Virus record (IMG/VR): IMGVR_UViG_3300047334_000344
Span: 1 to 22,032 of that record
DNA length: 22,032 nt
Reading direction: 5' to 3' (one strand)
Source of the DNA: a virus
Shown piece after piece: positions 1-20,790 of the stretch; position 1 is the stretch's first letter, and every line of letters starts with the position of its first letter. The position numbers and the translations under genes were made by a program. Under the pieces are notes generated by a model. That model was not told where the DNA came from and did not search any database. It worked only from the letters and a program-made list of their open reading frames with translations.

Positions 1-246
1 ATGCGCAACAAAAACGATGCGCAGCGTAATGAACTGTTGGGCAAAGACGTCGAATTTGCCCCGGCGTTAGATAAGAAAATGTTCTTTTCTGAAGAAAAGA
101 ACCAAAAGACTTTTATTCCGGCACTCGCGGATAGATCCGAGCCAGGGCCGGAAAGTTGGGAGGAACAGGAGAAGAAAAGTCTTTTACCTACTTTCTACGG
201 CAAAAAAGAACTTTCTCAAAATCCAGATTCAACACGAATACAAGAA
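1..246. other. Gene-free flank left of the tailspike gene
   Basis: No convincing gene. A plus-strand open frame of 86 codons runs over repeat copy 1 and into the end of the tailspike gene; its composition is that of the repeat, and it has no visible ribosome-binding context because it begins at base 1. Apart from the repeat at 81-211 I see nothing in this stretch. Confidence 0.5.
81..211 (+). repeat. Two-hairpin intergenic repeat, copy 1
   Basis: The left arm (81-117) begins with a near-perfect palindrome, GTTCTTTTCT and AGAAAAGAAC around a two-base centre, followed by CCAAAAGACTTTTATT. The right arm (about 175-211) carries AAAAGTCTTTT and ends in AAAAAAGAAC, so the two arms are imperfect inverted repeats of each other around a core of about 57 bp. 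The core shares CGGC, CTCGCGGATAGAT, GGCCGGA and TGGGAG with copy 2 at 13445-13572. It lies just past the stop of the last late gene, where hairpins could end minus-strand transcripts, but no GC-rich stem with a long T tract is present. The right arm is more diverged than in the other copies. Confidence 0.85.
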
Positions 247-2517
247 CTACGCTATGCTTAGCACACCATTATTGTTCCAAACCTGCCCAGACCCCGCGAT
301 CGGCTTCGTCGTCGGCAAACCGGGCAGGAAAATACCCCCTGTAGATGAGAGCGATAGGGCGCCCTTTGGTTCGATGCCAAGCCCGCCCGAATTGGTGGCA
401 ATCGTGCTAAGATTGGACCCCGCCGCATTCTGCACGACGATCCAGTTCGTCGCATTTGCGACATTCAAGAAGCTGACGAGATTGCCGGTTCCCACTGTCC
501 CACCGGCTGCATCAATATAGAGATGTCCGCCCTTGGTCCGAATGATGCCATTGACCTGCTGGTCCGCACCGTCAAAACACAAAATCGGCGCGTTAGTCGT
601 CGTCGCCGGCTGATTGCGCACGTAATTTGTCGCTGATGCCACATTGTTGATATAGAAAAGCACCTGACCGGATTGCCCTGCCCATACAAAATCCTTGGTA
701 CTTCCTACTCCGGATGGAGCATTCCCAAGTGCAGGAGATAGGAATGAGATAAAATTTTCAGAATTATTTGTCGATTGATCAATTAGAGCAGTTGATAGCG
801 AAACATTGCTCAAATTCAGCCCATAGGTTAGCAACCCCACCGTTCCATTTCCGCCGTTTATCTGGATCGCTGTCGCCATATCTTCGAAGTGGCAACTCTC
901 AATCGTATTGTCTGAAGAGTCCCAAGTACTACTGAAGCTGAAAGCGATGTCCTGAGGTGAACCACCACTAGGACCACCGACAAAATTGCATTGGCTCACA
1001 TGAAACTTTGAAACGTTGGTCATATTGAAAAAAGTCTGCGGCGTGTTTGGTCCAGCATCACGCGAGATATCAAGTCCCGAGAAAAATCCACCCGTCACAT
1101 TGTTCAGAAGCACAGTGCCAAGATTGGTGTTTATTTCCCCATTGGCGACCCACAGACCGAGCAGCATCGCTGTGTTTGCTTTGTAGCTCGGCCACAGTGT
1201 CTCGTTTGTCTGTGTGAAAAGATAGTCGGCGCCAACGACGACCGGCGCATGAATATATATGCCCTCGCAATACCCGGTCTGCAGAACGATCGCGTTTCCG
1301 AAATATGCCTGTATCCCATCGATTCGCGTATCAATTGAACCATTCACCTCGATTGTCGCAGATGCTGTGGCACCTGGGGCGGCCGGGGGCCCAAACCAAG
1401 AAATATTTCTAACTTGCGTGCTCCAGCAATTGTTCAGAACAATGCCCCGTAGAAATGTTTGAGGAAATGGCGTTGCGCCATTGCTTGCATTTGGATAGCT
1501 GAAGATCTCGATTTCATCTATGCTGGCTGAAATATATCCAAAACTGGAAGTGGCAGGATAGGTTATACGAATTGCCGCGCCAGTCTGCCCAGTCATGCTT
1601 TCCGCGATAAATGATATGCCATGCACGACAATCTTGTTAAAAAGGCTTGTGGGCACAAAATCGAAACCGATTCCGGTATGTTGAAAATGTAACTTGGTTT
1701 GACCACGGCCCAAACCACGCAAGGCAACCGGCTTGCCAGTGAACACAAGAGGTGTGCTGAACCAAAAATCTCCGCCTGGAATGAAAATTTCACCACCGGC
1801 GGAGCCAAGCTGGTTGAAGGCGGCAATGAAAGCAGCCGTGCAGTCGGCACCGCCCGCTACGGCACCGAAATCGAGCACGTTGATTACGTCGATAGCGCGG
1901 GTGCCCAATTGCCGCGAAGTGCCGGCGCCCCCGGCCTTCACGGTTCCTAGTGTCACGTCGCCGGCAATGGGAGCCGTCACCTGACCACTCGCATTCAAAC
2001 CGGCCGCACCACCTGCCGGAATAAGCGACGCAAGCGCCGTTATCGAGCCGCCCGCGCTGGTAATATCCTGAGACAAGGTTTGCAGTTGCGACGTGACAGT
2101 TGGATCGGTGGTCGCGCCAATGACACCATTTTGATTGATGGTTACATTAGAACCCGCGCTGAACAGAGCGCGCAACGAGGGGATAGGGAGTTGCTTCGGC
2201 GTTCCGCCCGAGTTAATGATGGCTTCATCGGTGGAAAGAAAACTTTGAGCCTGAACAAAGGAAGCATGATCGCCGCCATTTGCCGCGATGCTGGCGTTCT
2301 GTACAACAAGGCCTAAACCTACCGTGAGCGATTCCGGCCCGCCAGGTCCGAGTGACGCGCGGCCGAGCACGCAAGGGCTTGGCACCTCGATGGCTGGCTG
2401 CACGCTACTCAACAGTTCTGCCACACTCACAGAGCGAGTGACACCGCTCTGCTCGATCGGCAACACGTCTTGCGGGCCTGTCGAAATTGCACTCGGAAGT
2501 TCATCGATTGTAGGCAT
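247..2517 (-). CDS. Tailspike / tail fibre with pectate-lyase-type beta-helix
   Basis: A 756-residue, probably trimeric, receptor-binding protein at the tip of the tail. Residues 1-45 (MPTIDELPSA... then a VSVAELL motif) resemble the short N-terminal anchor common in tail fibres. Residues 110-205 are low in complexity and may form a stalk. From about residue 209 the motif INVLDFGAVAGGADCTAAF followed by GGEIFIPGGDFWF is the signature start of the pectate lyase superfamily domain (Pectate_lyase_3), continuing as an Asn- and Gly-rich right-handed beta-helix to about residue 600. The C-terminus (GLPTTKPIAGSGQVWNNNG) is a typical fibre end. Many such domains cut or bind surface polysaccharide, but the catalytic residues cannot be assigned by eye, so enzyme activity is inferred. 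The ATG has GGAG five bases upstream. It is the last gene of the late block. Confidence 0.85.
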   Translation of the reverse strand: MPTIDELPSAISTGPQDVLPIEQSGVTRSVSVAELLSSVQPAIEVPSPCVLGRASLGPGGPESLTVGLGLVVQNASIAANGGDHASFVQAQSFLSTDEAIINSGGTPKQLPIPSLRALFSAGSNVTINQNGVIGATTDPTVTSQLQTLSQDITSAGGSITALASLIPAGGAAGLNASGQVTAPIAGDVTLGTVKAGGAGTSRQLGTRAIDVINVLDFGAVAGGADCTAAFIAAFNQLGSAGGEIFIPGGDFWFSTPLVFTGKPVALRGLGRGQTKLHFQHTGIGFDFVPTSLFNKIVVHGISFIAESMTGQTGAAIRITYPATSSFGYISASIDEIEIFSYPNASNGATPFPQTFLRGIVLNNCWSTQVRNISWFGPPAAPGATASATIEVNGSIDTRIDGIQAYFGNAIVLQTGYCEGIYIHAPVVVGADYLFTQTNETLWPSYKANTAMLLGLWVANGEINTNLGTVLLNNVTGGFFSGLDISRDAGPNTPQTFFNMTNVSKFHVSQCNFVGGPSGGSPQDIAFSFSSTWDSSDNTIESCHFEDMATAIQINGGNGTVGLLTYGLNLSNVSLSTALIDQSTNNSENFISFLSPALGNAPSGVGSTKDFVWAGQSGQVLFYINNVASATNYVRNQPATTTNAPILCFDGADQQVNGIIRTKGGHLYIDAAGGTVGTGNLVSFLNVANATNWIVVQNAAGSNLSTIATNSGGLGIEPKGALSLSSTGGIFLPGLPTTKPIAGSGQVWNNNGVLSIA

Positions 2518-2544
2518 GTTTGCTCCGTTCCGTGAGAGCGTGGG

Positions 2545-3027
2545 TCAGCTAGTGGTCAGCGAAGCGCCGGTCTGGTCCGTCAGTGGCGCACCCGTTTGAT
2601 CGGTGATTACGTTGTTTGCAACAACTGGAGTCGCCAACGCCTCTACCGGTAAGGAGACGGTTCTCGAAAAGATGCGCCCGCTATTCGTTCCGACGACCAC
2701 AGTCACAGCGTAGGTTGTGCCTGCAACTCCCCCAGCAAGCCACAGAACCGCCTGATCCCCATCAGCGCTTGATGATTGCAGAGTTAAATCACCTGTATTG
2801 TTCGGGTAGATACTAACGTCGATCGTCGCGATAGCATCCCCGTCATTGCCCGCAAGCGCATCGGACAGATCAAAAACATAATCGAGAACGTCGCCCGGAT
2901 CCTTGATCGGCCATATCAACGCCGGCGGTTGTGTTTGCAGCACGCCGCGCGGATATGGGCCGAAGCCTTCCACCACCACAACACGTGACGTCGATGGCTG
3001 CCAGGTGTAGGTTGCACGTGTCGGCAT
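2545..3027 (-). CDS. Putative fibre-tail adaptor protein (gp77-like)
   Basis: A 160-residue protein between the Gly-rich fibre and the tailspike. The central part, with KDPGDVLDYVFDLSDAL at about residues 42-58, then IATIDVSIYP and LWLAGGVAGTTYAVTVVV, fits the phage fibre-tail adaptor family (gp77-like), which has a small beta-sandwich fold. It would join the spike or fibre to the baseplate. The C-terminus has a short tandem repeat, TDQTGAPL and TDQTGASL, probably flexible. The ATG at 3027 has GAGGA six bases upstream. Family assignment is from memory of the motif and is moderately sure; the adaptor role is inferred from family and position. Confidence 0.65.
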   Translation of the reverse strand: MPTRATYTWQPSTSRVVVVEGFGPYPRGVLQTQPPALIWPIKDPGDVLDYVFDLSDALAGNDGDAIATIDVSIYPNNTGDLTLQSSSADGDQAVLWLAGGVAGTTYAVTVVVGTNSGRIFSRTVSLPVEALATPVVANNVITDQTGAPLTDQTGASLTTS

Positions 3028-3106
3028 GCCATTTCCTCTCAGCTACTCAGCTGCGGCAAAGTTTCCGGCCTTCGCATCGCATGGGCTAGGTATGCGCCGG
3101 AAAAAC

Positions 3107-4351
3107 CTACCATTCGACCACCACCAAGCCCGGCCCGCCATTGCCCCCAAGCCCCGACTCTATGCCGCCAGATCCGCCGGCACCGGGCGACACACCATTC
3201 ACTCCGGCAATGGAACCCACTGTTGAGCTCACTGACGCAACGGCGCCGGAGCCACCGAATGCTCCACCACCGGCCCCGCTCATCCAGTTTGGCGCGCTTC
3301 CAAAGGCCGCCCCTCCAGGTGACCCACTTACCGAAAAGCCCGTACCAGAGCCTTGACCGCCGGCGGCACCGCCTAAACCACTGCCCGACGGTGCGCCATC
3401 CGATCCGGCCACCCCGCCAGTCGCCGACGCCAAGGCGCCAAAGCTTGAATTACCCCCGCCCGCCCCAGAGCCCGCCCCGCCATTGCCAACCGTGACGTCA
3501 ATAACTTCGCCCGGCGTCACCGCGTAAAAACCCTCACTGTAGCCGCCGCCCGCCCCGCCACCGCCCGGCCCTGTAAAGCCAGCGCCACCCGCACCGCCGC
3601 CGCCCCAAATACGAACTTTGACGCCGGTAACACCCGCCGGAACCTGCCATCCGCCCTGTGTAGTCGGCCCGAATGCGGCGAGATTGTGCGTACCTGGCGA
3701 AAGTTGCGGCAACTTCCATGTCAGGAAAGGCGCCGTCGGAAATTTAGTAATATTGGCGCTGGTAATTTCTGTCGCACCGTAAGCAACCGAAATCACGTAA
3801 AGTCCGACCCACCCAGAATCCACGCCTGGCGTCACCTGCGTTCCAGTTGGTCCTGGCGCCCCAGCCTTCGCCTGAAGTTGGACACTCTGCAGACGCTGGG
3901 TCATCTGCGCCGCCCCTGAATTGCCGGGCCCGCTATACGGGGACGATGGATTGGCTGAATTGTAATACGGCAGCACAATCGGATTGGCGTCCGCTTCCAG
4001 CAGGCTCGCCTCGATGAGGTAGTTGATCGACTGGCCTGACGCGCTCGGTGCTGCCAGCGTAAATTGTGTGCTACCCAGATTGACAGCTATGCGCAGAAGC
4101 GGATCATTCAAGGCCGGAAGAGAACCAAAAGCAGTGGTATCTACAACACCGAACTGCGTTATGCTTCCGGCACCAACCGAAACAGTCATCGAAGCCGGCG
4201 ACGTTGGCGTGCATGCCAGACCATCCACAACGGTCGAAGTTCCCAGTGTAACCTGCGCAAGATAGCCGAGCGCTACCATAACATTCCGCTCGACATTCAG
4301 CACATCCGTGTCAAGCGGTATGCTGCCGGGATAGACAATCTGTCTGTCCAT
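3107..4351 (-). CDS. Tail fibre protein with Gly-rich C-terminal domain
   Basis: A 414-residue structural protein. The N-terminal part (MDRQIVYPGSIPLDTDVLN..., residues 1-60) is a recognisable fibre head found beside gpI/gpJ genes. A tiny collagen-like stretch (GAPGPTGTQ) lies at about residues 164-172. From about 234 the motif GGWQVPAGVTGVKVRIWGGG opens a Gly/Ser/Ala-rich domain to the C-terminus, typical of glycine-rich phage appendage domains that form polyglycine-helix sandwiches. The ATG is preceded by AAAGGG at good spacing. It follows the gpI-position gene after a 223-bp gap and precedes the adaptor and spike, so it is probably a baseplate-attached fibre that binds the host surface. 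The binding target is unknown. Confidence 0.8.
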   Translation of the reverse strand: MDRQIVYPGSIPLDTDVLNVERNVMVALGYLAQVTLGTSTVVDGLACTPTSPASMTVSVGAGSITQFGVVDTTAFGSLPALNDPLLRIAVNLGSTQFTLAAPSASGQSINYLIEASLLEADANPIVLPYYNSANPSSPYSGPGNSGAAQMTQRLQSVQLQAKAGAPGPTGTQVTPGVDSGWVGLYVISVAYGATEITSANITKFPTAPFLTWKLPQLSPGTHNLAAFGPTTQGGWQVPAGVTGVKVRIWGGGGAGGAGFTGPGGGGAGGGYSEGFYAVTPGEVIDVTVGNGGAGSGAGGGNSSFGALASATGGVAGSDGAPSGSGLGGAAGGQGSGTGFSVSGSPGGAAFGSAPNWMSGAGGGAFGGSGAVASVSSTVGSIAGVNGVSPGAGGSGGIESGLGGNGGPGLVVVEW

Positions 4352-4441
4352 ATAATAACCCTTTCCATATCCTGCGTAGCTGGTAGTCGCGAAACAACTC
4401 TGCGATAGAACGCTACGAGACCCCTATCTACCCAAATCGTG

Positions 4442-4488
4442 CGAGGTCCGCCTTTGGGCGCAATGCCGCTTTGCATTGTACCGCCTCG
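4442..4488. repeat. Short structured hairpin, copy A
   Basis: In the 223-bp gap before the tail fibre gene. The inner stem pairs CAATGC with GCATTG around CGCTT-type bases, and outer CGAGG (4442-4446) pairs with CCTCG (4484-4488). The core GCAATGCCGCTT and the following GCATTG and ACC are shared with the hairpin at 14474-14504. No T tract follows on the minus strand, so it is a weak terminator candidate; it may be a dispersed repeat or an mRNA-stabilising stem. The rest of the gap (4352-4441, 4489-4574) shows nothing clear except the ribosome-binding site of the fibre gene. Confidence 0.6.
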
Positions 4489-4574
4489 ACGTAATATTCT
4501 GACAAAATAATAAACTTAATCCAGCTGGATGAAATCGACCGGATTGCGTAAACCGGCCCGGCCACTGTCCAACC

Positions 4575-5234
4575 TCAACCCTGTATGCGGGTCCAGCCCA
4601 TGTATCCGGCAGGGAGTATGGCAGTAACGGCCGCGTAGATATCGGCGTCCTTTACAGGCACTGTCACCATGGAAAGGTCTCCATAATAGGAATATCCCCC
4701 AGTGCCATAACCAGCAAAATTTGCGATTCCTCCCGCGGAAGGGCGTTCCACCGTAATAAAGCTTTGGTACGGCAGATTGAGATTTCCCCATCCCCCCGCA
4801 ACTGAATAGCCAACGCCACCACTATTGTAGCCGCCCGTATCATCTGGGCGAGCAGGTTCAAATATGGTTGGCGTGTTGCCGGTCAGCTCCGTCAACGCCA
4901 GTATGAGGGCCGATCGCGTTCCTCGAGGCCGCAACAACGCCTGCTTTATCCGCAGGCGAAACTCTGTATCCGTTTCCTGCACCCGGCGCGGCAGGCTGCT
5001 GCCGAAAAAGTCCACGCTCGCCATGTCCAGAAAAGGACCATACACCGTGGCGAGGCGGGCAAGCAGCATCACATCGGTAATAAGGGCATAGATTGCCGAC
5101 CAAGCTCTACCAAACCCAGCCAGCACAGCCTGCAAATAGCTGGGTTGTTCCGGCGGCGCCGTAGGGCTGGCGAACCATCCAGTCGGAAGCACGGCTAGCA
5201 TACGCCGCACAAAATCCGCAACATCACCAATCAT
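4575..5234 (-). CDS. Baseplate / tail protein in the gpI (YmfQ-like) position
   Basis: A 219-residue protein one base after the stop of the gpJ gene (TAA, C, ATG), so it is probably translated by coupling. The N-terminal half has helical text such as FLDMASVDFFGSSLPRRVQETDTEFRLRIKQALLRPRGTR in pieces near residues 68-107: an LDxxA/FG pattern followed by an R-rich DxxFRxRI segment, as in gpI and YmfQ-type tail proteins that link baseplate wedge to fibre. The middle is Gly/Tyr-rich (GGYNSGGVGYS). The likely role is connecting the gpJ wedge with the tail fibre encoded next. The position supports this better than sequence similarity does. Confidence 0.6.
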   Translation of the reverse strand: MIGDVADFVRRMLAVLPTGWFASPTAPPEQPSYLQAVLAGFGRAWSAIYALITDVMLLARLATVYGPFLDMASVDFFGSSLPRRVQETDTEFRLRIKQALLRPRGTRSALILALTELTGNTPTIFEPARPDDTGGYNSGGVGYSVAGGWGNLNLPYQSFITVERPSAGGIANFAGYGTGGYSYYGDLSMVTVPVKDADIYAAVTAILPAGYMGWTRIQG

Positions 5235-5235
5235 G

Positions 5236-6357
5236 TTAATTTACCGTCACGCCGAAGCACACCAGCACCCCATTATCCGGTGCGGCCACATCCAGTCTGG
5301 CGCCATTGATCGTCGTTCCAGTCACACTCACAACAGACGGGTCTGTGTTATGCGCTATCGCCTCGATCATGGAGATCGCCAAGGTGCCGGCTATGGGCAG
5401 GCCCGCAATCCATGCGAGAACATTTTGCTGTATTTGGGTCTCAACTTGCAATTCCGTCAGCGAATTAGAGGTGGCAATGGTCATTGCCACGGCAACCTCA
5501 ACAACCACCGGCCCGCTCACCGCGTATGTCGCGCCAATAGGCCTAACGGCCTCAACGGCTGTGCCGGCGTTGCTGATAAGGCTTGCTGGCGGATAGCCCG
5601 TCCCGTCATCGACAACAACGCAGAAATTGCCAGGCAGAGGATTCCCCTGTGTATCAACGTTTTCCAGAACGCTATACCGCAAACCCTGCTGCAAAGACGC
5701 AATCGCAAACTGGATCGCGGTGCCAGTCGCCAAAGAACGGCTATTTATGTAAAGCTGAAATCTGGCGCGAAAAGCGGCATCGCTTTCGGGGTCAATACCT
5801 CCCGTCAATGCTTGTGCATTTGTAACCGTATCTATACCGGGAATCGCAGTCTTAATAAGCTGGATTGTATTCGGTTGCACATTCCCTGCACTTCCCGGCA
5901 GAAGCGCCTGTACCGGAACGGTAACACTGGCTAACGAGGCTGCCAGACTATACCCATTACTCCCGTTCCAGGCTGGATTACCCGGTGCCGCAACAACTAC
6001 AAAACTCTGCGAGTTGTTGCTCACACTCACCATCTCGTTCACGGAAATCGTCGTGGCAATGCCAACAGTATAGCGGGAAAAAGTCACCAGACCCACCGCA
6101 GGCGCGCCAGGCAATCGTGTCAACGAGAAATCCGCCATCCAACTATCAAGATCGCTCCCGCTGCTGGTGGCTGCCCGCGTCATTGATAGCACCTGCAGGA
6201 TGAGCCATTGCATCCAGAGCGCTATGGATGCACAGGCCTCAAGCAAGGCGCGCAGAACGCTACCTACGGAAAGATCTATCAACTGCGCAGCGCCACCCTG
6301 CACGCCCGCAGCCATGTTTTGAACAAGCGTCGTAAAATTTTGCAATGGCAAGATCAT
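5236..6357 (-). CDS. Baseplate J / gp47-like wedge protein
   Basis: A roughly 373-residue baseplate wedge component. The N-terminal region has LIDLSVGSVLRALLEACASIALW followed by TRAATSSGSDLDSWMADFSLTR, the usual gpJ pattern in which a helical hairpin is followed by a short loop naming the first beta domain. The middle has the VTVPVQALLPGSAGNVQPNTI stretch, which is highly typical of the family, then GIDPESDAAFRARFQLYI. The frame extends to a GTG at 6366 overlapping the previous gene, but the ATG at 6357, one base after that gene's TAG, is the simpler start. In contractile phages this protein forms the wedges around the hub with gp25/W and I. Confidence 0.9.
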   Translation of the reverse strand: MILPLQNFTTLVQNMAAGVQGGAAQLIDLSVGSVLRALLEACASIALWMQWLILQVLSMTRAATSSGSDLDSWMADFSLTRLPGAPAVGLVTFSRYTVGIATTISVNEMVSVSNNSQSFVVVAAPGNPAWNGSNGYSLAASLASVTVPVQALLPGSAGNVQPNTIQLIKTAIPGIDTVTNAQALTGGIDPESDAAFRARFQLYINSRSLATGTAIQFAIASLQQGLRYSVLENVDTQGNPLPGNFCVVVDDGTGYPPASLISNAGTAVEAVRPIGATYAVSGPVVVEVAVAMTIATSNSLTELQVETQIQQNVLAWIAGLPIAGTLAISMIEAIAHNTDPSVVSVTGTTINGARLDVAAPDNGVLVCFGVTVN

Positions 6358-6358
6358 T

Positions 6359-6727
6359 CTACGCACTCACTGAAAATGACAGAACCTGCGTAGCCCCAGT
6401 TGCAGAATCGATGTATCGAATATACACATAGACACTGCCATTTTGTGCATTCTGCACGTCAATAACCGGCTCGGGGAGCCTTGCAACCACCGACTCCATG
6501 AATATCTGGCTTCTAATTGTCGACCTCATTGCGGCAACATTGGCGACCTGGCCAGTGAACTGAGCAAGTCCAGCACCATACTGCAAATGCCAAATGTAAT
6601 CACCTGGATTTGTCAACAGACGACGCAAAACACGTTGCTGTCCCAAGACGGTCCCCGACGCCAGAGCGATATCTCCTGTCGGTCCAGCGGCGAGATCGCC
6701 GCCCCACAGCAAAGCTGCGTCCTGCAT
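6359..6727 (-). CDS. Baseplate wedge protein, gpW / gp25-like
   Basis: A 122-residue protein directly upstream of gpJ. RRLLTNPGDYIWHLQYGAGL at about residues 35-54 matches the family core, in which RRLxTxPGd is followed by a YGxgL motif, and the rest is a short alpha/beta domain. In T4 and P2 this protein ties the baseplate wedge to the sheath. It has a good ribosome-binding site: AAAGGA seven bases before the ATG at 6727. Its stop TAG lies one base before the preferred ATG of gpJ. It is separated from the upstream spike gene by 218 bp, which breaks the otherwise gapless tail block. Confidence 0.75.
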   Translation of the reverse strand: MQDAALLWGGDLAAGPTGDIALASGTVLGQQRVLRRLLTNPGDYIWHLQYGAGLAQFTGQVANVAAMRSTIRSQIFMESVVARLPEPVIDVQNAQNGSVYVYIRYIDSATGATQVLSFSVSA

Positions 6728-6945
6728 CCCGTAATCCTTTCGCTGCGCCTGATAATTCTGTCCCGTAATGTGTCCGTGTTCAAAAAGGCCTAAGCAGAAG
6801 GTGTGTTCTTTTTAGAAAAAATACTTTTATTCTGCACTGGCTGAGATATCCGTACCATGGCCTCTCAATGCCGGTAGCGCTTGAATTTGCCGTAGGGGGG
6901 GCTGCTGTGCAGCCCAACACCAGCAGCGCAATCCAAATTCAGAAG
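6728..6945. other. Intergenic gap between spike and gp25-like genes
   Basis: 218 bp without a credible gene inside a tightly packed block. Two things are visible: a run at 6805-6834 resembling half an arm of the two-hairpin repeat (GTTCTTTTTAGAAAA, then TACTTTTATTCTGC), and a perfect 7-bp hairpin GGGCTGC/GCAGCCC with a 3-base loop at 6898-6915. Neither has a terminator-like T tract on the minus strand. Confidence 0.5.
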
Positions 6946-7470
6946 TCAATCCTTCGGCGTTGGTGGCGTAGTGCTCGGCTCGTGCACGTGCTCGTTATAG
7001 TGCTTACGCAAGTCCGCCAGCGAGTTGTAAGAATCGAATACGTTGCCAGTAACATGCAGGTCGCCCGTGTGCGTCCACGTCGCGGCATTGCTCTGTATCG
7101 AACCATCGTTACAAAGCTTTAGATAGCTACCACTTTGGTGCACCAACCAAAACTCGCCAACCGGTGCACCAGGCGTTGCTACCGTGTTCGACCATAAGCG
7201 GCCAACAATAATGCCGTGCTCGGAATCCCCTTCCTGGCACAAAACAAGCACCTGCTCGCCGCTCGCCGGCGGGCATGCCAGGCCCCAGCCTGCCCCAACC
7301 CAAGGAGCCGCAACGGGCAACCAGCCCGAGAGCACATTTTCGGGCTGAATCAGAACCCGCGCGGTGAAAGTCGCGGGATCCACCGAACTAACAACCGCCA
7401 ACCGCGGCTGCGCCCAACCCTGATCGATCTGCGAAGCATGAGCCTTGCAAAGATTCAAAAATCCGTCCAT
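6946..7470 (-). CDS. Baseplate assembly protein V (central spike)
   Basis: A 174-residue spike protein that tips the tail tube and pierces the outer membrane. Residues 20-100 form the OB-fold part (QPRLAVVSSVDPATFTARV, then the GEQVLVLCQEGD motif). The C-terminal beta segment ends in RKHYNEHVHEP (about residues 155-164), where HVH at 161-163 matches the HxH apex motif that binds iron in P2 gpV-type spikes. The ATG at 7470 has AGGA seven bases upstream and overlaps the end of the gpD-like gene by 16 bp. The Pro/Thr tail after the motif is short. Position next to the hub protein gene agrees with a hub-spike assembly. Confidence 0.85.
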   Translation of the reverse strand: MDGFLNLCKAHASQIDQGWAQPRLAVVSSVDPATFTARVLIQPENVLSGWLPVAAPWVGAGWGLACPPASGEQVLVLCQEGDSEHGIIVGRLWSNTVATPGAPVGEFWLVHQSGSYLKLCNDGSIQSNAATWTHTGDLHVTGNVFDSYNSLADLRKHYNEHVHEPSTTPPTPKD

Positions 7471-11673: not shown

Positions 11674-11756
11674 CGTTTGGTCTCTCCTAAATCCCAACCT
11701 CGCTATTGCGAGATGAAGAAATTTGGTTCTGGTCTAAACTAAGCTTGGTCAGAGGC

Positions 11757-13337: not shown

Positions 13338-13444
13338 GCCTTAAAACCCCTCTATTTCATAACCGGCACGACGGCTTCACGCACACATCAATAAATGCCT
13401 GCCCCAGAAGAAAAGTCTCCCGGTCAACGAGTTTAGAGTAAGAT

Positions 13445-13572
13445 GTTCTTTTCTAAAGAAAAGAACCAAAAGACTTTTATTTCGGCGCTCGCGGATAGAT
13501 ACCGGCCCTGGCCGGAGAGGTGGGAGACAACCAGAGGTAAAAGTCTTTTGCTTTTTTTCGTCAGAAAAGAAG
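13445..13572 (+). repeat. Two-hairpin intergenic repeat, copy 2
   Basis: The left arm (13445-13479) has GTTCTTTTCT, two bases, then AGAAAAGAAC-type bases, and CCAAAAGACTTTTA; the right arm (13538-13572) has TAAAAGTCTTTTGC and ends TCAGAAAAGAAG. The arms are inverted complements, each able to fold alone, around a 58-bp core sharing CTCGCGGATAGAT and GGCCGGA with copy 1. It occupies nearly half of the 275-bp gap between head and tail modules. A stem made by both arms together could act on transcription or RNA processing. Same orientation as copy 1. Confidence 0.85.
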
Positions 13573-13612
13573 ATATTTCCTAAAACCCTGCTCTATCATC
13601 GCCTCAGGAACA

Positions 13613-14428
13613 TCAACCGTAAAACGAAGTGCCAGACCAGATCAGGTCGCCAAACAGCATAGATGGGGCAGCCGCTTCCACGGTCGTCCCATATTCCACG
13701 TCATAGACAAGATCCCTTCGATACTGTTGAGCATCCTGATCTTCGTCATAACTTGCCGTCGACCTGAACCGAATGCGGCCTGCCGTGCCGTCAGCAAGGG
13801 TCAGAAAGGAAACGGAAGAAAGAGCACTTCCTACGCAACTGCAAAGTGTATCGCGTGACATTGGATCAGGGCTCCAAACAGTAATCCTGAACCCTTGCCT
13901 CTGGCGCGCCCATTCAGTGACAGATGAACCATCCGCGACTACGCGCGCAGTGATCGATTCAGCACCTGGAATGCTTACCGTCGCACCTGATAGCCAGCAA
14001 GCCCTAACCTTGCGCACAGTCTGAGCAAGCATAGCCGCAACAAGTGCAGGTGTATCTCCATTTTGGCTTCGATAAACGAAAGGCTCGTTCTGAACAAGCA
14101 AGCCTGCAACCTGCCCGATGGCGGCCGTCCCGGAGAATGTCGCGGCGTTGCCATTCACCGCCACGAGCAAGGTCTGGCTTCCGGGTGTGCTATGTGTGCG
14201 AGGCGCCCAGCGGGTCGTGTTCCGTGTTGCATTCGGCATCGAAAATATACTAACATTGGCCACCCGGCCGGCAAGATCATTCCCCAGCGGACCAATTAAC
14301 GGCCACCCGCGATATATACGCACAGGATTTCCGGTTATGCTCGGGGCCGTCAATCCGGCCGGATAAATGGTTCCTGTAACGGCAGCGACAAGAGCCGTTT
14401 CTACGTCAGAAAGGTCTGCCAAAGCCAA
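13613..14428 (-). CDS. Head-tail completion or tail terminator protein (by position)
   Basis: A 271-residue protein between the connector genes and the sheath. It opens MALADLSDVETALVAAV, then GNPVRIYRGWPLIGP, and has a middle section with VARNT/GTAAIGQVAGLLVQNE-like beta text and a C-terminal RRDLVYDVEYGTTV segment. No signature motif of a named family was recognised, but the order capsid, connector, stopper, terminator, sheath makes tail terminator the best guess. Start codons available are TTG at 14428 and TTG at 14422; GAGGG lies 3 or 9 bases upstream of them, so the second is equally possible. Confidence 0.6.
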   Translation of the reverse strand: MALADLSDVETALVAAVTGTIYPAGLTAPSITGNPVRIYRGWPLIGPLGNDLAGRVANVSIFSMPNATRNTTRWAPRTHSTPGSQTLLVAVNGNAATFSGTAAIGQVAGLLVQNEPFVYRSQNGDTPALVAAMLAQTVRKVRACWLSGATVSIPGAESITARVVADGSSVTEWARQRQGFRITVWSPDPMSRDTLCSCVGSALSSVSFLTLADGTAGRIRFRSTASYDEDQDAQQYRRDLVYDVEYGTTVEAAAPSMLFGDLIWSGTSFYG

Positions 14429-14473
14429 ACACCCTCGTTCTCGATCTTTTCATTGATCGCCCCAGTTCTGTCG

Positions 14474-14503
14474 TGGAATGCAATGCCGCTTGGCATTGCA
14501 CCA
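14474..14503. repeat. Short structured hairpin, copy B
   Basis: Perfect 9-bp stem TGCAATGCC / GGCATTGCA with a GCTT loop at 14479-14500, and TGG pairing with CCA outside it. It lies in the 123-bp gap (14429-14551) between the terminator-like gene and the next gene. It shares GCAATGCCGCTT, GCATTG and the following ACC with the structure at 4442-4488. There is no T tract beside it on the minus strand. The remainder of the gap holds only the ribosome-binding region of the downstream gene. Confidence 0.65.
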
Positions 14504-14551
14504 TCTCATGGCACAACCTCGCGATATGACCGACTCACGGCACCCGCTCAG

Positions 14552-15178
14552 TCACGCGCCGAGCTGACGAACAAGCAGCCGCCACCCAAGCGAGCTTTGC
14601 TCCGCCGAGCCAACCACATAGTGTCCGCCGATATCATCGCTCACAACATCGGCAACCATCAGATCAACAGGCAAGCCAGGCAACAGCAAATCCCAGCTGG
14701 CTAGGCGGGTTTCCCCAGGGCGCAGGCCCACACTATGACTGCCACTCGCCAATAGGCTAGCGGGCCAGTTCGAAATCACAAGCTCACCCGGTGACGCAAA
14801 AAAACCACTATAATTTCCTTGTTGCGCGGGTGATGGCCGCACAATCGTCACCACGCGATTTGTCAATACGCACTGAATTGGCAAACTTGGCCATTGGCGA
14901 GCAATGAAGTATGTCGCATAACTCCCCACCAGGTAATCGCCGGCTTGTGTGTAGCTTGCGTCGAAATTCCCCCACCACAAGGCCTGTCCATAATCCGGGC
15001 CTTGCGGCAGTCCGCTTCCCTCAGCGGAAAACGCGGCACAAACGTCGATCACTCGGTTCTGAGGCCGTGTCGGTTGATTGGCGCCCTTCGGTCTATACAC
15101 CGTATAAGGCGACCCCAGCTTCCGGGCCGATGCACCGGCCCCCTTGGCAATAAGATCCTGTAACTTCCGCGCGTTCAT
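14552..15178 (-). CDS. Head closure / head-tail connector protein (by position)
   Basis: A 208-residue protein. The open frame extends 22 codons further upstream, but the ATG at 15178 overlaps the preceding stop as TAATG and begins MNARKLQDLIAKGAGASARKLG, which is the natural start. Typical text follows: VIDVCAAFSAEGSGL, GPDYGQALWWGNFD, VLTNRVVTIVRP, beta-rich to the C-terminus. It reads like a small beta-barrel stopper of the head-tail interface. Gene order, two places after the capsid gene, supports a head completion role; no specific motif was recognised. Confidence 0.6.
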   Translation of the reverse strand: MNARKLQDLIAKGAGASARKLGSPYTVYRPKGANQPTRPQNRVIDVCAAFSAEGSGLPQGPDYGQALWWGNFDASYTQAGDYLVGSYATYFIARQWPSLPIQCVLTNRVVTIVRPSPAQQGNYSGFFASPGELVISNWPASLLASGSHSVGLRPGETRLASWDLLLPGLPVDLMVADVVSDDIGGHYVVGSAEQSSLGWRLLVRQLGA

Positions 15179-15552
15179 TAAACCACCCAACTCACGCCCG
15201 CATTTGCGAGCCCATCTCCAGGCGGAACGCCAAAGAAGCTGCACAACCGCCTACGCCAAGCGTCAAGCAACCTTAGCCTATCTCCGATCTCCGACTGATT
15301 GTGCTTCCAGGTTGCGGCTGCCTCTGTGTCAAGATTATCGCTCGCGGTCGGAACCGCCGACTCCAGTTGCGAGATCGTCGAAAGATAGTTAAGCACAACT
15401 GCTATTTCCGCCGGCGAAAGATTGTTCATGCGATATTCCAGCAGCCCATATGCAACAAAAAACCGCCAACCAATATTTCCCGCGGGTGAGGCGCCATAAG
15501 CGGGATAGCCGCAGAAGCGCCGCACATCCGTCTTCTGCTGGTCAGTAAGCAT
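15178..15552 (-). CDS. Head-tail connector / adaptor protein
   Basis: A 124-residue, mostly helical protein directly after the major capsid gene. The text MLTDQQKTDVRRFCGYPAYG, then FFVAYGLLEYRMNNLSPAEI, LESAVPTASDNLDTEAAATW and AWRRRLCSFFGVPPG matches a widespread small phage protein of this location that I remember as uncharacterised in most genomes; it is comparable to gp6-type connector proteins that ring the portal. The ATG has GGGAG five bases upstream. Its stop overlaps the next gene by one base. Confidence 0.7.
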   Translation of the reverse strand: MLTDQQKTDVRRFCGYPAYGASPAGNIGWRFFVAYGLLEYRMNNLSPAEIAVVLNYLSTISQLESAVPTASDNLDTEAAATWKHNQSEIGDRLRLLDAWRRRLCSFFGVPPGDGLANAGVSWVV

Positions 15553-15603
15553 GCGAACTCCCAGTCAAGGCTCAGCCAGCTCGCGCGCCGGCGCCAATCG
15601 TGA

Positions 15604-16932
15604 TCAGCCCATATGCTCAATCATGACTGCACGTTTGAAGTTTGCATTGGTCGATGTCGGCACGGTTAATGAATTCGTTGTTGTATCAGAAGGCGCACAA
15701 AAGCCGCCAATCCAATACCAGGATTGCGCAATGATTTGCTGCAGCCTATCAATCGGCTCCCGTGTCACCATGCATACACCATCCACAAGTGAAACTATAG
15801 AATCCTTGGGGGCGACATCGTCGGCAGCCATGCCGGCGAAGTCGCCCTCAATGAGGGCGCCTTGCCCAACCACGATTGGCCGCCGCACCACCGAGCCCGC
15901 AACGCTTGGCGCCGCCTGCACGAAGGATTCCGTCGTCAGCACAAAGCGCAGCCCCAAGAACTCGTTCACCACGCCTTGACCCGGCTTAAAAACCTCGTTT
16001 GCTGATAGAGCGCCGATGAAAAGTCTCTGGAAATCCGGATCGGCAAAGAGTTGCCGAGCACTGATCGGATCAAGATAACAGTTGTAGGCGCCATCAATGT
16101 CGGGAACCGCATTCAGCCGCAACCCAGCCACGGCATCCAACACATTACTCATCGAAAGCGTATCGCCCACCTGCAGCTGAGCCGTATTCGTTCTGCCATT
16201 CGGCCGCAGGATCAAGGAGGAGGTTGCCGCCTGCACGGTATTTCCAGCAGTCCCGTCACTCACCGAGACGTTCCCGGAAAAGGTCAGAGTGCCGCTGATG
16301 CCGCCCGGGGCCGTCGAAACATTTGTGGCATCGGCGCTTGTTCCGATCAGCGTATAGGTGTCCGCGCCCACGGTCACTGTCAGCGGATTAGCGCCACCCA
16401 CAGGCTGCTGAACACCGTTCAGATACGCCGTAAAGAAGCCACGGATATCGTCGACAGCCAAGGAGGGCGAAGCGCTGCCCAGCGTGGTTCGCACACGCGT
16501 ATTGCCACCGAAATAGGCACTAAACAATGCATTGCGCGCCAGGTCATCCAAGCTGCGTCCGGCCTGTTCACCATTCACGTAGGCGTTCTGCAAGAACTGG
16601 CTCGCAATACCCACGCGGCTTGTCACCATGTTCAGATCCATGGTCGCCGCATAGTGATTGAGCGTCAGTGTGTATTGTTCCACGCTCCAAGATCCCGGGC
16701 TAAGCCCGTTATCCAGATTCGTATTGGTGTTGGCAGCCAGTGGAACAGTCACGGCCGGCAACAGGCCTGCCCGCGTTTTCGTCAGCGTTTCGCCGATGCC
16801 AACGGCGAATTCTTCACGATCCGCGCAAGCCCTGTAGCCAAGTTTTGAGCGTAACGCCTGCTCGAACTCACGCTCAAGGAAACCTTGCTGGATAATCGGC
16901 TGCAGCGCGGCCGGAAAATTCGCAATGCTCAT
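15604..16932 (-). CDS. Major capsid protein (HK97-fold)
   Basis: A 442-residue capsid subunit. MSIANFPAALQPIIQQGFLE opens an N-terminal helix, then EQALRSKLGYR and ETLTKTRAGLLPAV; the centre has an Ig-like or insertion stretch (ADTYTLIGTSADATNVSTAP...), and the C-terminal half has NCYLDPISARQLFADPDFQRLF and GVVNEFLGLRFVLTTESF, a pattern seen in P22- or Mu-like major coat proteins. The frame can also begin at TTG 16944, but ATG 16932 with GGGGA about five bases upstream is preferred. An intrinsic terminator-like stem lies just upstream. The scaffold-like protein is encoded before it. Confidence 0.85.
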   Translation of the reverse strand: MSIANFPAALQPIIQQGFLEREFEQALRSKLGYRACADREEFAVGIGETLTKTRAGLLPAVTVPLAANTNTNLDNGLSPGSWSVEQYTLTLNHYAATMDLNMVTSRVGIASQFLQNAYVNGEQAGRSLDDLARNALFSAYFGGNTRVRTTLGSASPSLAVDDIRGFFTAYLNGVQQPVGGANPLTVTVGADTYTLIGTSADATNVSTAPGGISGTLTFSGNVSVSDGTAGNTVQAATSSLILRPNGRTNTAQLQVGDTLSMSNVLDAVAGLRLNAVPDIDGAYNCYLDPISARQLFADPDFQRLFIGALSANEVFKPGQGVVNEFLGLRFVLTTESFVQAAPSVAGSVVRRPIVVGQGALIEGDFAGMAADDVAPKDSIVSLVDGVCMVTREPIDRLQQIIAQSWYWIGGFCAPSDTTTNSLTVPTSTNANFKRAVMIEHMG

Positions 16933-16942
16933 TCTTATCCCC

Positions 16943-16967
16943 AAAAAATAAGGGGGCCGCGCCCCCC
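16943..16967 (-). terminator. Intrinsic terminator-like stem before the capsid gene
   Basis: Read on the minus strand: GGGGGC, loop GCG, GCCCCC, directly followed by TTATTTTTT. A 6-bp pure G/C stem with an immediate T-rich tract is the standard intrinsic terminator form. It lies between the scaffold-like gene (ends 16995) and the capsid start (16932), with the capsid ribosome-binding site directly after the T tract. Confidence 0.7.
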
Positions 16968-16994
16968 ATAGTTGCCGATCCTACTAAACCCTCG

Positions 16995-17399
16995 TTATCG
17001 TCTACGAAGCAGCTCCGCTCTGGCAGCGCGCCACTCTTCAACACTCATCTCAGTTGCCAGCTTACGTTTGATTGGTGCAGCCTGTGGCACAGTCGAGGTA
17101 CTACTTGAGCTTGCCGCGGCAAACAGCCATGGCTTGTCCCGGCGAAGTTTCGCGATAACATGAGCTGCATCATCATGAGTCTCAGCGCCCTTTGCCGATA
17201 GGATGGACGGATCTAAAAGCTTCAGCCCGTCCAGGTCCACAATTCCGGCGCGAACCGCCTCGGCCTTCAATTCGGCCTCACGCAAGCGTGCGGCCGACTG
17301 CATCTCGGCCTCGTGCAACTGTCGTTCCAAGGCCTCTGCATGCGCCTTCAAGGCCGCAAAGGCAGCCGCATCCATAGTATCACCGCCAACGTCGCTCAT
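16995..17399 (-). CDS. Scaffold-like phage protein
   Basis: A 134-residue protein between portal and capsid. Residues 10-50 form a charged coiled coil (AFAALKAHAEALERQLHEAE, then MQSAARLREAELKAEA). VRAGIVDLDGLKLLDPSILS around residues 49-68 is a motif familiar from phage capsid scaffold or assembly proteins at this spot, followed by a Ser/Thr linker and a basic C-terminal helix ending LRRR. It is much shorter than many scaffolds. It overlaps the portal gene as ATGA, so coupled translation is likely. It probably guides assembly of the procapsid around the portal. Confidence 0.7.
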   Translation of the reverse strand: MSDVGGDTMDAAAFAALKAHAEALERQLHEAEMQSAARLREAELKAEAVRAGIVDLDGLKLLDPSILSAKGAETHDDAAHVIAKLRRDKPWLFAAASSSSTSTVPQAAPIKRKLATEMSVEEWRAARAELLRRR

Positions 17400-18790
17400 C
17401 CTACCCCCTCGGCCCTGATTTTCGCTATTTCTCCAGCCACGTCCTCAATGTCGTAATCCGACGCGAGTATTCGCAACGCTGTTTCCCGCGACATTTGCGC
17501 CGCACCAACAAGCGAGATAAGTGTCTCAGCCTTTCGTTGGCCATCTAGTGCATCATCCGGATACCAATCTGGCCAACGCAAACTCAAACGCGCATTAACA
17601 TTCAATGGTGCCAGTTCTCGGCCTTCTACCTGCAAGGCAAATACATGGCTTGCTCTAAGAACCATCCGGGCAAGTGTCAGCAATGCACCCTGGCCGTAAC
17701 TCACCCGGAGATTATCCGCGAGCCATAACAAGCCCTGATTCATCAACTCAATGGCACGGCCGCTTGCAGGAGCCGTCATGCGTTGGGGGTCTGCCCTGTT
17801 TCCGTGCAGACTTTCCAGGGCAAATTCTCTTAGCACCCGAACGTATTCTATTACCGCCTGGCTTGCTGTCCCACCAATCTCCAGCAGTTTCGCGTCACCC
17901 TTCTCGCTTACAACCAAAGCGTTCGCAGCGCCTCGAACCATTGTTCCTTCCAATCCGGCCGGCTCGCGGATTAGCAAGGTAGGATCACTGCTATATTTCA
18001 AACCGCGTCCAGCCTGACTCAATTGATAGTCGATCTCGATCCCGGTATCGATCGCATTTCGAAATGTACAAGAACCATCGACACCACTACCGCCGGGTAG
18101 ATTCCGGACCCATACGACCGGAACAAATCCCAATGCATGTCGGGTCGATCTTTCTGCGTCCCTCACAGCCGTGGCGGAGCTTCCTACAGGAACAGGCTCG
18201 AACCAATGCTCACAATCCTCGTCCCAAACGCGCTGAAACCAATACATCGCGCCAGGATCAGCAATCGCAACACCCTGAGCGGCCAAGCTGGCTCCGCTCA
18301 CCTTATATCTTTCGGTTACGCGCAATAACCTATCCGGCGCTTCTCTGTCCCATTCGGGAGTGAGATACAGCGTCTCCATCACATCAAAAAACACTCGCCC
18401 ACGCAAAACGCGCAACAGCACGGCAACCGAGCCCACGGCGCCGCGCAGCGCAGTTTCCACCATGACGGAGTTCAGCTTTGTATCACGTACCACGGCAGCA
18501 AGGGCGTCGCGCACTTCAGCATCGGAGGACTCAATCGCTGGGAAATGGGCCTCGCTGAATAGCAGCGCAACACTATCCTCCACCACAAGGCGCGCCAACC
18601 CGTAACGGACGGATGGCCGCCTCTGACGCAGCGGCACATACTCGCCACTCAAACTGCGTTCCTCATGAAATTCATAAGGCAGGCAATCGTAGATCGTGCC
18701 ATCTAGAATACGCTTATATATCTCCAAAACGCGCGTGCGCTCGGGATAGTCGGCATCCATCGGCACCAAGTTGGAGATCGTGCGGAGCAA
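17396..18790 (-). CDS. Portal protein
   Basis: A 464-residue portal that forms the dodecameric DNA channel at one capsid vertex and docks the terminase. The sequence has LARLVVEDSVALLFSEAHFP early, the HGNRADPQRMTAPASGRAIELMNQ helix region, and the C-terminal RWPDWYPDDALDGQRKAETLISLVGA followed by SRETALRILASDYDI, the standard end of SPP1 gp6-type portals. The TTG at 18790 has AAAGGA at seven-base spacing; ATG at 18760 in the same frame has only a weak site, so TTG is chosen. It is preceded by a 73-bp gap after the terminase. Confidence 0.85.
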   Translation of the reverse strand: MLRTISNLVPMDADYPERTRVLEIYKRILDGTIYDCLPYEFHEERSLSGEYVPLRQRRPSVRYGLARLVVEDSVALLFSEAHFPAIESSDAEVRDALAAVVRDTKLNSVMVETALRGAVGSVAVLLRVLRGRVFFDVMETLYLTPEWDREAPDRLLRVTERYKVSGASLAAQGVAIADPGAMYWFQRVWDEDCEHWFEPVPVGSSATAVRDAERSTRHALGFVPVVWVRNLPGGSGVDGSCTFRNAIDTGIEIDYQLSQAGRGLKYSSDPTLLIREPAGLEGTMVRGAANALVVSEKGDAKLLEIGGTASQAVIEYVRVLREFALESLHGNRADPQRMTAPASGRAIELMNQGLLWLADNLRVSYGQGALLTLARMVLRASHVFALQVEGRELAPLNVNARLSLRWPDWYPDDALDGQRKAETLISLVGAAQMSRETALRILASDYDIEDVAGEIAKIRAEGVG

Positions 18791-18863
18791 TTGTCATTCC
18801 TTTGTCGAGTCTAAACCGGAAGCAGCCGTGGCCTTGCGGCCGCCACGATACGCGACGCAGCAG

Positions 18864-20267
18864 TCATCGCTCAATGAAGCTGAGATTTTTGAACCGCGCT
18901 GCAGGAGACTGCGAGATCAGCAAACTAAATGCCCGTGCCAAAGCATCTACCTGGTCGTCCTTCCTGCCATGTGGGAAGTTAGCCAACTCATCCATAAAGG
19001 CGGCATTCCAGGCGGCACGTCGCACAGCAACTGTTCCGGCTGAAACTTGCGAAGCGAAAGGCATCGCCCGCGTCTCCTTCATGCCCGTCTCAGGTGTCGA
19101 AATCACACGGAACCCCGCCAGCATTTGCGTCAGAAACAAGATCTGCGCCTTGCCCGCCTGTCCAGGATCCTGTGGAAGTCCAATAGTCACCAATGCGCCA
19201 TCGTTCGAAGCAGTGGCTCGAACCCGCTCTGCCACGTCCCCCGGCGCCGCACGAAAGCGCACCACATCATCCACAAACACGCTTCCCAGCGCATCGCGCA
19301 CTAACCTCACGCCAACAGTCCAATCGGCGTCATGGCTGCCTTCCCCACTGCCAGCAAGATCCCAGGCTCGCACAGCCACGCCTGCCGGCACTTCGTCCAC
19401 CACCCGCAGCTTGCGGGGATCGAATATCTGGCCACCCGCCCCCATAGGCGATTGCTGAAACAGCGCGGAAAAATGCCGCTCACCAAGCATATTACGTTTC
19501 TCTAACAATGCAGCATCATCCTCCCACTCCGGCCAAAGTGCGGCTCCAACCTCGCGTCCAAGCGGGTCGCCATCCTCGGCCATGGCGGGCAGCCGCAACA
19601 ACTCCCAGCCACCCTGCTCAATAAGGCGCCCCGCCAAATCATCGCAGTGCCATCTTGTCATGATCACAACCACCCGGCCTCGCGGCTTCAGTCGCGTAAT
19701 CAACTCGGATCGAAACCACTCCCACAAATGCTCTCGGGAAGGAAAGCTTTCCGCATCCACGAATGAACGAATTGGGTCATCCACCAGCGCCAGGTCCGCG
19801 CGCCGGCCCGTCACCGCCCCATGCACACCAATCGCAAAATATTCTCCGCCCACCTGCGTCACAAACCTGCCGGCTGCCCTCGCATCCGCGCGAAGTCTGA
19901 GGCCAAGTAAGGTGGAATGCGTTTCCACCAATCCACGCACTCCCCGCCCAAAATCATGTGCCAGCCGCGCTGTGTGGCTGGCTGCGATCACGGCGCTTCT
20001 GGGGTACCGCGCAAGCCACCACGCCGGGAACAAGCGGCTTGCATAGGTACTTTTGGCTGATCCTGGTGGCAGCAACACAATAAGCCGCCTGGTTTCGCCG
20101 GTAGAAACGCGTTGCAGGGCATTGATGATTTCAAGATGATGCCGCGCGGGTGCTTGCCCCCAGTCCCGCAGAGCAAAGCTTGACCAGGCTTCAAGGCTCG
20201 TCCTGATCTTCTCCCTCAAATTCCATTGCGACTCCAAGAATTGCACTGTGGGTGGCGCAGGATTCAT
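18864..20267 (-). CDS. Terminase large subunit
   Basis: A 467-residue packaging motor and nuclease. The N-terminal ATPase has Walker A LPPGSAKST at residues 66-74 (Lys72), Walker B DLALVDD at 158-164, and TRWHCDD at about 204-210 as the coupling motif. The C-terminal RNase-H-like nuclease begins with VRAWDLAGSGEGSHDADWT, giving the first Asp, and closes with GRKDDQVDALARAFS, giving the last acidic residues. The ATG at 20267 lies inside the end of the upstream small gene, a 77-bp overlap, without a clear ribosome-binding site, so translation is probably coupled. Length and motifs agree with intact function. Confidence 0.93.
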   Translation of the reverse strand: MNPAPPTVQFLESQWNLREKIRTSLEAWSSFALRDWGQAPARHHLEIINALQRVSTGETRRLIVLLPPGSAKSTYASRLFPAWWLARYPRSAVIAASHTARLAHDFGRGVRGLVETHSTLLGLRLRADARAAGRFVTQVGGEYFAIGVHGAVTGRRADLALVDDPIRSFVDAESFPSREHLWEWFRSELITRLKPRGRVVVIMTRWHCDDLAGRLIEQGGWELLRLPAMAEDGDPLGREVGAALWPEWEDDAALLEKRNMLGERHFSALFQQSPMGAGGQIFDPRKLRVVDEVPAGVAVRAWDLAGSGEGSHDADWTVGVRLVRDALGSVFVDDVVRFRAAPGDVAERVRATASNDGALVTIGLPQDPGQAGKAQILFLTQMLAGFRVISTPETGMKETRAMPFASQVSAGTVAVRRAAWNAAFMDELANFPHGRKDDQVDALARAFSLLISQSPAARFKNLSFIER

Positions 20268-20448
20268 AGGGTATTCTGTCCCTCAGCCTCGGCAGACCTG
20301 TTGGTTCAATCCCGGCCTCAGCTTTCGCTTGCTGCAAGGGATGCACCGGCTTGGCAAATGCCGCGGCCTGATCAAAATTTGTCGCCTGCGACCGAAGATG
20401 CTTGGTCGTAATCAGCACATGCAAAGGCGAAGTCGCGTCATCCGCCAC
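20191..20448 (-). CDS. Small protein in the terminase-small-subunit position
   Basis: An 85-residue frame starting at GTG 20448, with a very strong ribosome-binding site, GGAGG, five bases upstream (GGAGGG at 20458-20453). Text: MADDATSPLHVLITTKHLRS, AKAEAGIEPTGLPRLRDRIP, ILGVAMEFEGEDQDEP. There is no visible helix-turn-helix or terminase-small motif, and it overlaps the large terminase gene by 77 bp. The strong site makes it a real gene candidate; it may only serve to carry ribosomes to the terminase start. It is the first gene after the putative late promoter. Confidence 0.6.
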   Translation of the reverse strand: MADDATSPLHVLITTKHLRSQATNFDQAAAFAKPVHPLQQAKAEAGIEPTGLPRLRDRIPYESCATHSAILGVAMEFEGEDQDEP

Positions 20449-20551
20449 TTATCCCTCCAAGTCAGCTTGCATGGAATTGAGAACGGGCAGGCCAGTCAAA
20501 GGCGCCGCCAGACCGCCCGGCCGTGTTGCACAAGCCGCCAGCGTTGAAGAA

Positions 20552-20581
20552 AATATACCTAAAGTTGGTCCAACTGGGCAA
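20552..20581 (-). promoter_or_regulatory. Candidate late promoter with palindromic operator
   Basis: Minus-strand TTGCCC (20581-20576) and TATATT (20557-20552) are 18 bp apart. The spacer holds a perfect 13-bp palindrome, AGTTGG and CCAACT around one centre base (20563-20575). Transcription would begin near 20545 and give a leader of about 97 nt before the small gene at 20448. The -35 match is partial (TTGCCC versus TTGACA), so the promoter is a prediction; the palindrome is exact. Confidence 0.45.
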
Positions 20582-20661
20582 GCAAAATCGACAGATTTTT
20601 TTTCTTTCCAAAATGCGGAAAATCTGGGCGATATCGTCGCTCGAAAAAAGTTGAAAAAAGT

Positions 20662-20790
20662 CCTTCTTTTCTGAAGAAAAAAAGCAAAAGACTCTTGTTC
20701 TTCTACCAGTTCTCCGTTGGGAGTCCATGACCGGATGATGCCGCCAGCGCAGGAATAAAAGTCTTTTGGTTCTTTTCTTCAGAAAAGAAC
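20662..20790 (-). repeat. Two-hairpin intergenic repeat, copy 3 (inverted)
   Basis: Same 129-bp design as copies 1 and 2 but in the opposite orientation: the GGTTCTTTTC-type arm lies on the right (20755-20790, AAAAGTCTTTTGGTTCTTTT then CTTCAGAAAAGAAC) and the GCTTTTTTTC-type arm on the left (20662-20696). The core is more diverged than in copies 1 and 2; only short motifs such as TGCGCTGGCGG match on the reverse strand. It separates the terminase transcription unit from the plus-strand gene and could isolate the two. Confidence 0.8.

Follow-up and report, generated by a model that had tools for sequence, protein, structure and literature searches.

The double-hairpin repeat analysed here is a dispersed element of Acetobacteraceae that has colonised their prophages. 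Our window, the whole 22,032-nucleotide (22-kb) stretch of an IMG/VR virus record (IMGVR_UViG_3300047334_000344), carries three copies of it in and around the structural genes of a contractile-tail phage; the repeat counts given below come from other Acetobacteraceae genomes, not from the phage's own host. Acetobacteraceae chromosomes can hold hundreds of copies, and the repeat fills different gaps in phages of the same gene order. We lean towards an explanation, which we consider on balance probable, in which it is a non-autonomous DNA repeat resembling the repetitive extragenic palindromes (REPs), with a single hairpin arm as its unit and a third-strand fold.

A host repeat has colonised prophages of Acetobacteraceae

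The three copies (+81–211, +13445–13572 and −20663–20790) align with one another over their entire length of ~130 nt, at 76–80% pairwise identity and with E ~1e-23 to 1e-29 within the window, confirming a preliminary description of this DNA that had proposed three related double hairpins. Each copy consists of two hairpin arms in inverted orientation, which form a ~128-bp inverted repeat. The left arms are near identical in all three (GTTCTTTTCT[A/G]AAGAAAAGAACCAAAAGACTTTTATT). On the right, copies 2 and 3 carry arms of the GCTTTTTTTC type, whereas that of copy 1 has degenerated; the earlier distinction of two arm types is therefore borne out by copies 2 and 3 but not by copy 1. The same applies to the proposal that all copies lie outside genes: copies 2 and 3 are intergenic, but an open frame (1–261; 86 aa, no Pfam match) that is cut by the contig end encloses copy 1. 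This frame may or may not be a real gene, and the repeat may form the C-terminus of its protein. No Rfam match reached the gathering score in the window. The arms, and the operon that houses them, are as follows.

81–114, plus strand: left arm of copy 1; hairpin 81–102 (GTTC-TTTTC-TGAA-GAAAA-GAAC), linker C, purine tract AAAAG at 104–108, which mirrors GAAAA of the hairpin, then ACTTTT
171–211, minus strand: right arm of copy 1; hairpin degenerate, tail AAAAGACTTTT intact on the minus strand
13445–13478, plus strand: left arm of copy 2; hairpin 13445–13466, tail AAAAGACTTTT at 13468–13478, between phage genes g16 and tail sheath
13539–13572, minus strand: right arm of copy 2; outer stem of the CTTC type
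20757–20790, minus strand: arm of copy 3 in element orientation; hairpin 20769–20790, upstream of the terminase block
20663–20696, plus strand: second arm of copy 3; hairpin 20663–20684, tail AAAAGACTCTT
~6804–6862, plus strand: fourth, decayed arm between gp25-like and gpV-like genes; 78% identity to copy 1 over 46 nt, E 6e-5
247–20448, minus strand: syntenic contractile-tail phage structural operon housing the repeats (spike, baseplate J, sheath, major head protein, portal, terminase)

In bacteria, an exact 36-mer common to the arms was found in 20 stretches of GTDB species genomes, all of them in metagenome-assembled genomes (MAGs) of Acetobacteraceae type. When a 21-mer was searched with up to two mismatches, 93 of 397 Acetobacteraceae genomes contained the arm, and a reversed-pattern control gave no matches. 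Among other members of the class (Alphaproteobacteria), one of 288 genomes had a single match, compared with three control matches, and the repeat therefore appears restricted to Acetobacteraceae. The richest genomes hold 890 (in 4.3 Mb), 706, 332 and 257 arms. The first of these carriers is a MAG deposited as 'Acidobacteria bacterium BOG_genome_mining.39' (CAJCIS01, L031–L043), which falls in the family-level draw of a Rhodovastum MAG; its Acidobacteria label is probably wrong. Plasmid and phage collections searched with the element by BLAST yielded no matches, a low-complexity filter possibly masking the arms.

Relatives of the window's terminase were found at 22 virus loci, nearly all with identical gene order. 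Within this shared order the occupied gaps differ between phages (terminase/portal, g20/head protein, g17/g16, sheath/tube and others), and gaps occupied in one phage stand empty in many syntenic relatives. In addition, 46 of the 68 newly fetched virus loci with arms have genes of the window's phage family. Based on the copy counts in hosts and the occupied and empty sites in syntenic phages, we conclude with high confidence that a host repeat colonised resident prophages; a dispersed host element had been proposed from the window alone. A terminase homologue (E 1e-60 or better) is present in 141 of the 397 Acetobacteraceae genomes, mostly in single copy and with syntenic structural genes at most loci inspected. 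This terminase-bearing cluster could represent a prophage of very wide occurrence, or else a domesticated set of genes resembling a transfer agent.

The repeating unit is probably the single arm

The arm is ~50 nt long and runs from a head (AAGGAAG-NN, positions −2 and −1 being variable) through a hairpin, a linker C and a purine tract to ACTTTT. Its 22-nt hairpin comprises a 4-bp outer stem, a pyrimidine tract (Y), the loop TGAA and a purine tract (R1), and the tract after the linker C is a second purine tract (R2). On host contigs, arms occur solo or in close pairs, with 94 head-to-head versus 12 other close arrangements. Two head-to-head arms and their core, which is variable and mostly 41–44 or 60–62 nt long, make up the ~128-bp double hairpin.

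The outermost hairpin pair (0/21) covaries within the arm, being G-C, C-G or T-A in 301, 90 and 37 of 441. Between the two arms of a dimer it assorts independently: GC is combined with CG in 27 of 98 dimers, when ~25 are expected from the frequencies. Since the arms choose their outer pair independently, these 27 dimers mismatch in the long stem, and the small hairpin is the conserved part. A long-stem function of the 130-bp palindrome was rejected on these grounds, and the repeating unit is very likely the arm rather than the palindrome.

Three tracts of the arm change in step

Base 27, which lies outside the hairpin, follows pair 8–13, as triples at positions 8, 13 and 27 are TAA in 308 arms, CGG in 124 and something else in nine. 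Perfect-stem arms were then parsed without an assumed tract length, and R2 was the reverse of R1 in 414 of 428, compared with 217 (standard deviation 8, maximum 249) with tails shuffled within genomes. The tract classes (AAAAA, GAAAA, GAAAAA, AAAA, AAAAAA, AGAAA and GAAAAAA) cover lengths of 4–7, and the position of the G is mirrored too. Separate virus loci follow the same rule (104 of 111 perfect-stem arms vs 50 when shuffled). Predictions for three classes held in other genomes, as shown by pattern searches in 65 genomes with the tail left free and rows counted by hand. R2 was AAAAAAG in 133 of 134 arms of the 7-nt class and AAAA in all but ~10 of ~160 listed rows of the 4-nt class; in the internal-C class, 124 of the 125 arms with R1 = AGAAA had R2 = AAAGA, and none of the 18 with R1 = AAAAA did. 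Among 124 distinct arms, mutual information was highest of all column pairs for 0–21, 8–27, 8–13 and 13–27, and the sum fell to background once the partner was shifted by one to three columns.

Watson–Crick pairing is not the source of the relation between R1 and R2, because this relation is parallel. Pairing with the adjacent T-run was rejected as the cause of R2 length, since this run stays at 4 whatever the length of R2. Tract class and outer base pair vary independently of each other. The order Y–R–R with the third tract mirroring the second is shared with the PIT/BoxC layout and is that of a class II intrastrand triplex, its complement being class IV (PMC4666352). Pyrimidine-type intrastrand triplexes can form in RNA, whereas purine-type ones cannot (PMC4666352). 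Judged from sequence, the strand with the order Y–R1–R2 would be able to adopt a purine-motif intrastrand triplex, and its complement a pyrimidine-motif one; of the two, the complement (T-A-T) is the more plausible triplex. That the third-strand fold is the selected feature has, in our estimate, about even chances. Somewhat short of even, we tentatively propose that hairpin and tail evolve together triad for triad, in both length and G position, because the intrastrand triplex is the form recognised for spread or function; such a triplex would form in DNA of either strand or in RNA of the pyrimidine strand.

A mirror rule might also arise without a triplex, if a protein that reads hairpin and tail together locks the tracts, or if a small number of ancient subfamilies, differing at linked positions, have been copied faithfully. 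This is a substantial possibility, though not the one we prefer, and it would fit the dominance of two or three subfamilies in each genome, the small number of A/T triads and a one-base linker that may be too tight for a triplex. It accords less well with a rule that spans lengths 4–7 and three G positions in many genomes, or with the independence of the outer pair and the constancy of the T-run noted above, and mirror symmetry would be an unnatural relation between protein half-sites.

Arms cluster beside stop codons

In two MAGs with home-made gene calls, dimer heads facing a stop codon lay within 15 nt of it in 58 of 97 cases and solo heads in 49 of 92; for random intergenic positions the figure was 8%. 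About 90% of arms lie outside called genes, and divergent gaps are depleted. For several arms the overlap with a gene end is exactly 12 nt, fitting the TGA of the loop as stop codon. In the opposite reading direction, arms encode KSFLVLFFKKE-like peptides, which may pollute annotations.

This placement bears on a suggestion of the preliminary description, that the repeat is punctuation that ends or processes transcripts. More broadly, the repeat could be kept after stops for transcript ends, mRNA stability or translation attenuation, as would suit the strong clustering within 15 nt of stops, the depletion of divergent gaps and the reported stalling of ribosomes by E. coli REPs that lie no more than 15 nt from a stop codon (PMC12306157). 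However, terminator-like sites occur at chance level, solo arms turn their head to a stop about as often as their tail (92 vs 95) and occupancy varies among syntenic phages. A role in ending or processing transcripts is thus not supported, and we consider retention as punctuation improbable; the lack of orientation bias and the polymorphic occupancy favour tolerated insertions. Because arms cluster by stop codons and E. coli REPs are reported to cause stalling there, a translational or mRNA effect of the arms is possible by analogy.

Candidate routes of mobility

Repeats of the REP/REPIN type are moved by REP-associated tyrosine transposases (RAYTs), and such a route would match the hairpin with its 5′ head, the head-to-head dimers in intergenic DNA and the high copy number. 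An absence of RAYTs, first suggested by a search with Y1_Tnp (PF01797), was wrong: model NF047646 found RAYT genes, in 23 of 43 arm-rich compared with 2 of 37 arm-free genomes (p 2e-6). Furthermore, arms lie 68–99 nt downstream of three RAYT genes and 68–198 nt from a few. This correlation could stem from shared ancestry, however, and the inspected RAYTs are flanked by GTAG...CCCACCCTAC repeats of their own, with arms absent or beyond these, so arms near RAYTs were rejected as their cognate repeats. Six element-rich genomes (G131, G333, G122, G174, G215 and G336) have no RAYT by the NF047646 profile. The arm also has no GTAG/GGAG tag 5′ of the hairpin, where its own head stands, and lacks the CGTC/TGTC tag and CCA tail of CGTC REPs. 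Mobilisation by a RAYT is therefore unlikely. Elsewhere in the window, further palindromes of the TGCAATGCCGCTTGGCATTGCA type (14479–14500 and 4459–4480) resemble the GTAG-tagged repeats flanking a RAYT gene in genome G003 (L204), and the phage seems also to have been hit by canonical REPs.

Movement as a miniature inverted-repeat transposable element (MITE) by a DDE transposase acting on inverted ends is very unlikely, since the inverted-repeat layout and a MITE-like unit carrying the element in genome G001 are outweighed by many solo arms, the absence of any enriched offset for a target-site duplication in 98 dimers and the failure to see a multicopy transposase flanked by arms. The G001 unit (L089, L093, L102 and L125) is itself multicopy, with ends GAGTCCGTCC / GGACAGACA and CTNA flanks; it was set aside as mobiliser, one copy of our repeat being merely its cargo. 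At L125 the core is deleted between the two palindromic hairpins. The only transposase between distant arms, an intact IS1595-family gene adjoining a solo arm (L124, 1097–1993), was likewise set aside, as it has no arm-like terminal repeats. No autonomous relative with the same ends was present in ~1 Mb sampled from two MAGs, in which assembly gaps are possible. Of the earlier label 'REP/MITE-like', the dispersed, hairpin and head-to-head character survives; strict REP/RAYT or MITE membership does not, given the lack of target duplication and RAYTs that have their own GTAG repeats.

The explanation that we favour remains a REP-like, non-autonomous repeat built from arms. The phage carries the repeat through residing in Acetobacteraceae hosts, as copy counts and occupied and empty sites show, and arms usually pair head-to-head around a variable core to give the ~128-bp double hairpin. 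With R2 mirroring R1, the three-way covariation suggests that one strand, Y–R1–R2, may fold as an intrastrand triplex. This folded single strand would be recognised by a putative single-stranded-DNA enzyme and the unit copied in trans; insertions, as the placement data show, survive mainly just past stop codons. Such an enzyme is our best guess at the mobiliser because of the hairpin unit, the head-to-head dimers and the lack of target duplication, and it is a guess that we hold with less than even confidence.

Several points weigh against this explanation. No mobilising enzyme was found and no transposition was observed. Exact empty-site joins between phages could not be read, as intergenic flanks are too diverged, and comparison does not place the insertion points. 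Most of the genomes are MAGs, and the gene calls in host contigs were home-made. The arms are inherited in subfamilies, so the counts are not independent events, and the shuffle was within genomes only. Finally, the triads number only four to seven and are mostly A-A-T, which is few for a purine-motif triplex to be stable, and a one-base linker across the 4-bp outer stem may strain the fold.

Relation to known repeats and significance

The BoxC/PIT/TMECO repeats of Enterobacteria (PMC4666352) are similar in that one strand runs Y-loop-R-loop-mirrored R (class II; complement class IV) and in being intergenic, dispersed, without strand bias or known transposase, and sometimes in inverted pairs. 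The Acetobacteraceae repeat differs from them in being A/T-rich rather than G/C-rich, in having 4–7 triads rather than 9, and in its additional conserved stem of 4 bp and its linker fixed at one base; it also reaches ~890 arms per genome, in Acetobacteraceae only, lies by stop codons, is common in prophages and has a covarying third tract. The BoxC/TMECO consensus CCCTCNCCC...GGGNGAGGG was not found in the arms, whose tracts are T/A-rich. GTAG REPs and REPINs with RAYTs (PMC3733652, PMC3116915) share the short hairpin, 5′ head, head-to-head dimers, intergenic location, high copy number and lineage specificity, but the arm has neither the GTAG tag nor a cognate RAYT, local RAYTs being accompanied by different repeats that bear the GTAG tag. 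The CGTC REPs known from Alphaproteobacteria (PMC3733652) likewise form head-to-head dimers without a dedicated transposase; the arm lacks their tag, and they are reported missing from Acetobacteraceae (PMC3733652), where the arm family occurs. ERIC, or 127-bp intergenic repeat units (PMC2759123), are also palindromic, intergenic, near the dimer in length and able to extend reading frames, but no sequence match is known and it is the arm, not a 127-bp unit, that repeats here. Overall the repeat behaves like REP/BIME and PIT/BoxC elements, yet lacks features that define each of the named families, and is apparently undescribed. Neither a description of it nor printed arm sequences were found in the literature searched, subscription papers being outside its coverage.

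Potential intrastrand triplexes have been listed by the thousands in bacterial genomes, with any use in cells so far putative. The arms, in which Y, R1 and R2 change together over lengths 4–7, are matched natural variants for a direct test of triplex formation, and the proposed fold, if true, would give comparative evidence that a triplex has been selected in a family of dispersed repeats. The repeat would also explain odd C-terminal peptides where genes run into an arm. Together, these results add an abundant repeat to the Acetobacteraceae and show that their prophages have been colonised by it.

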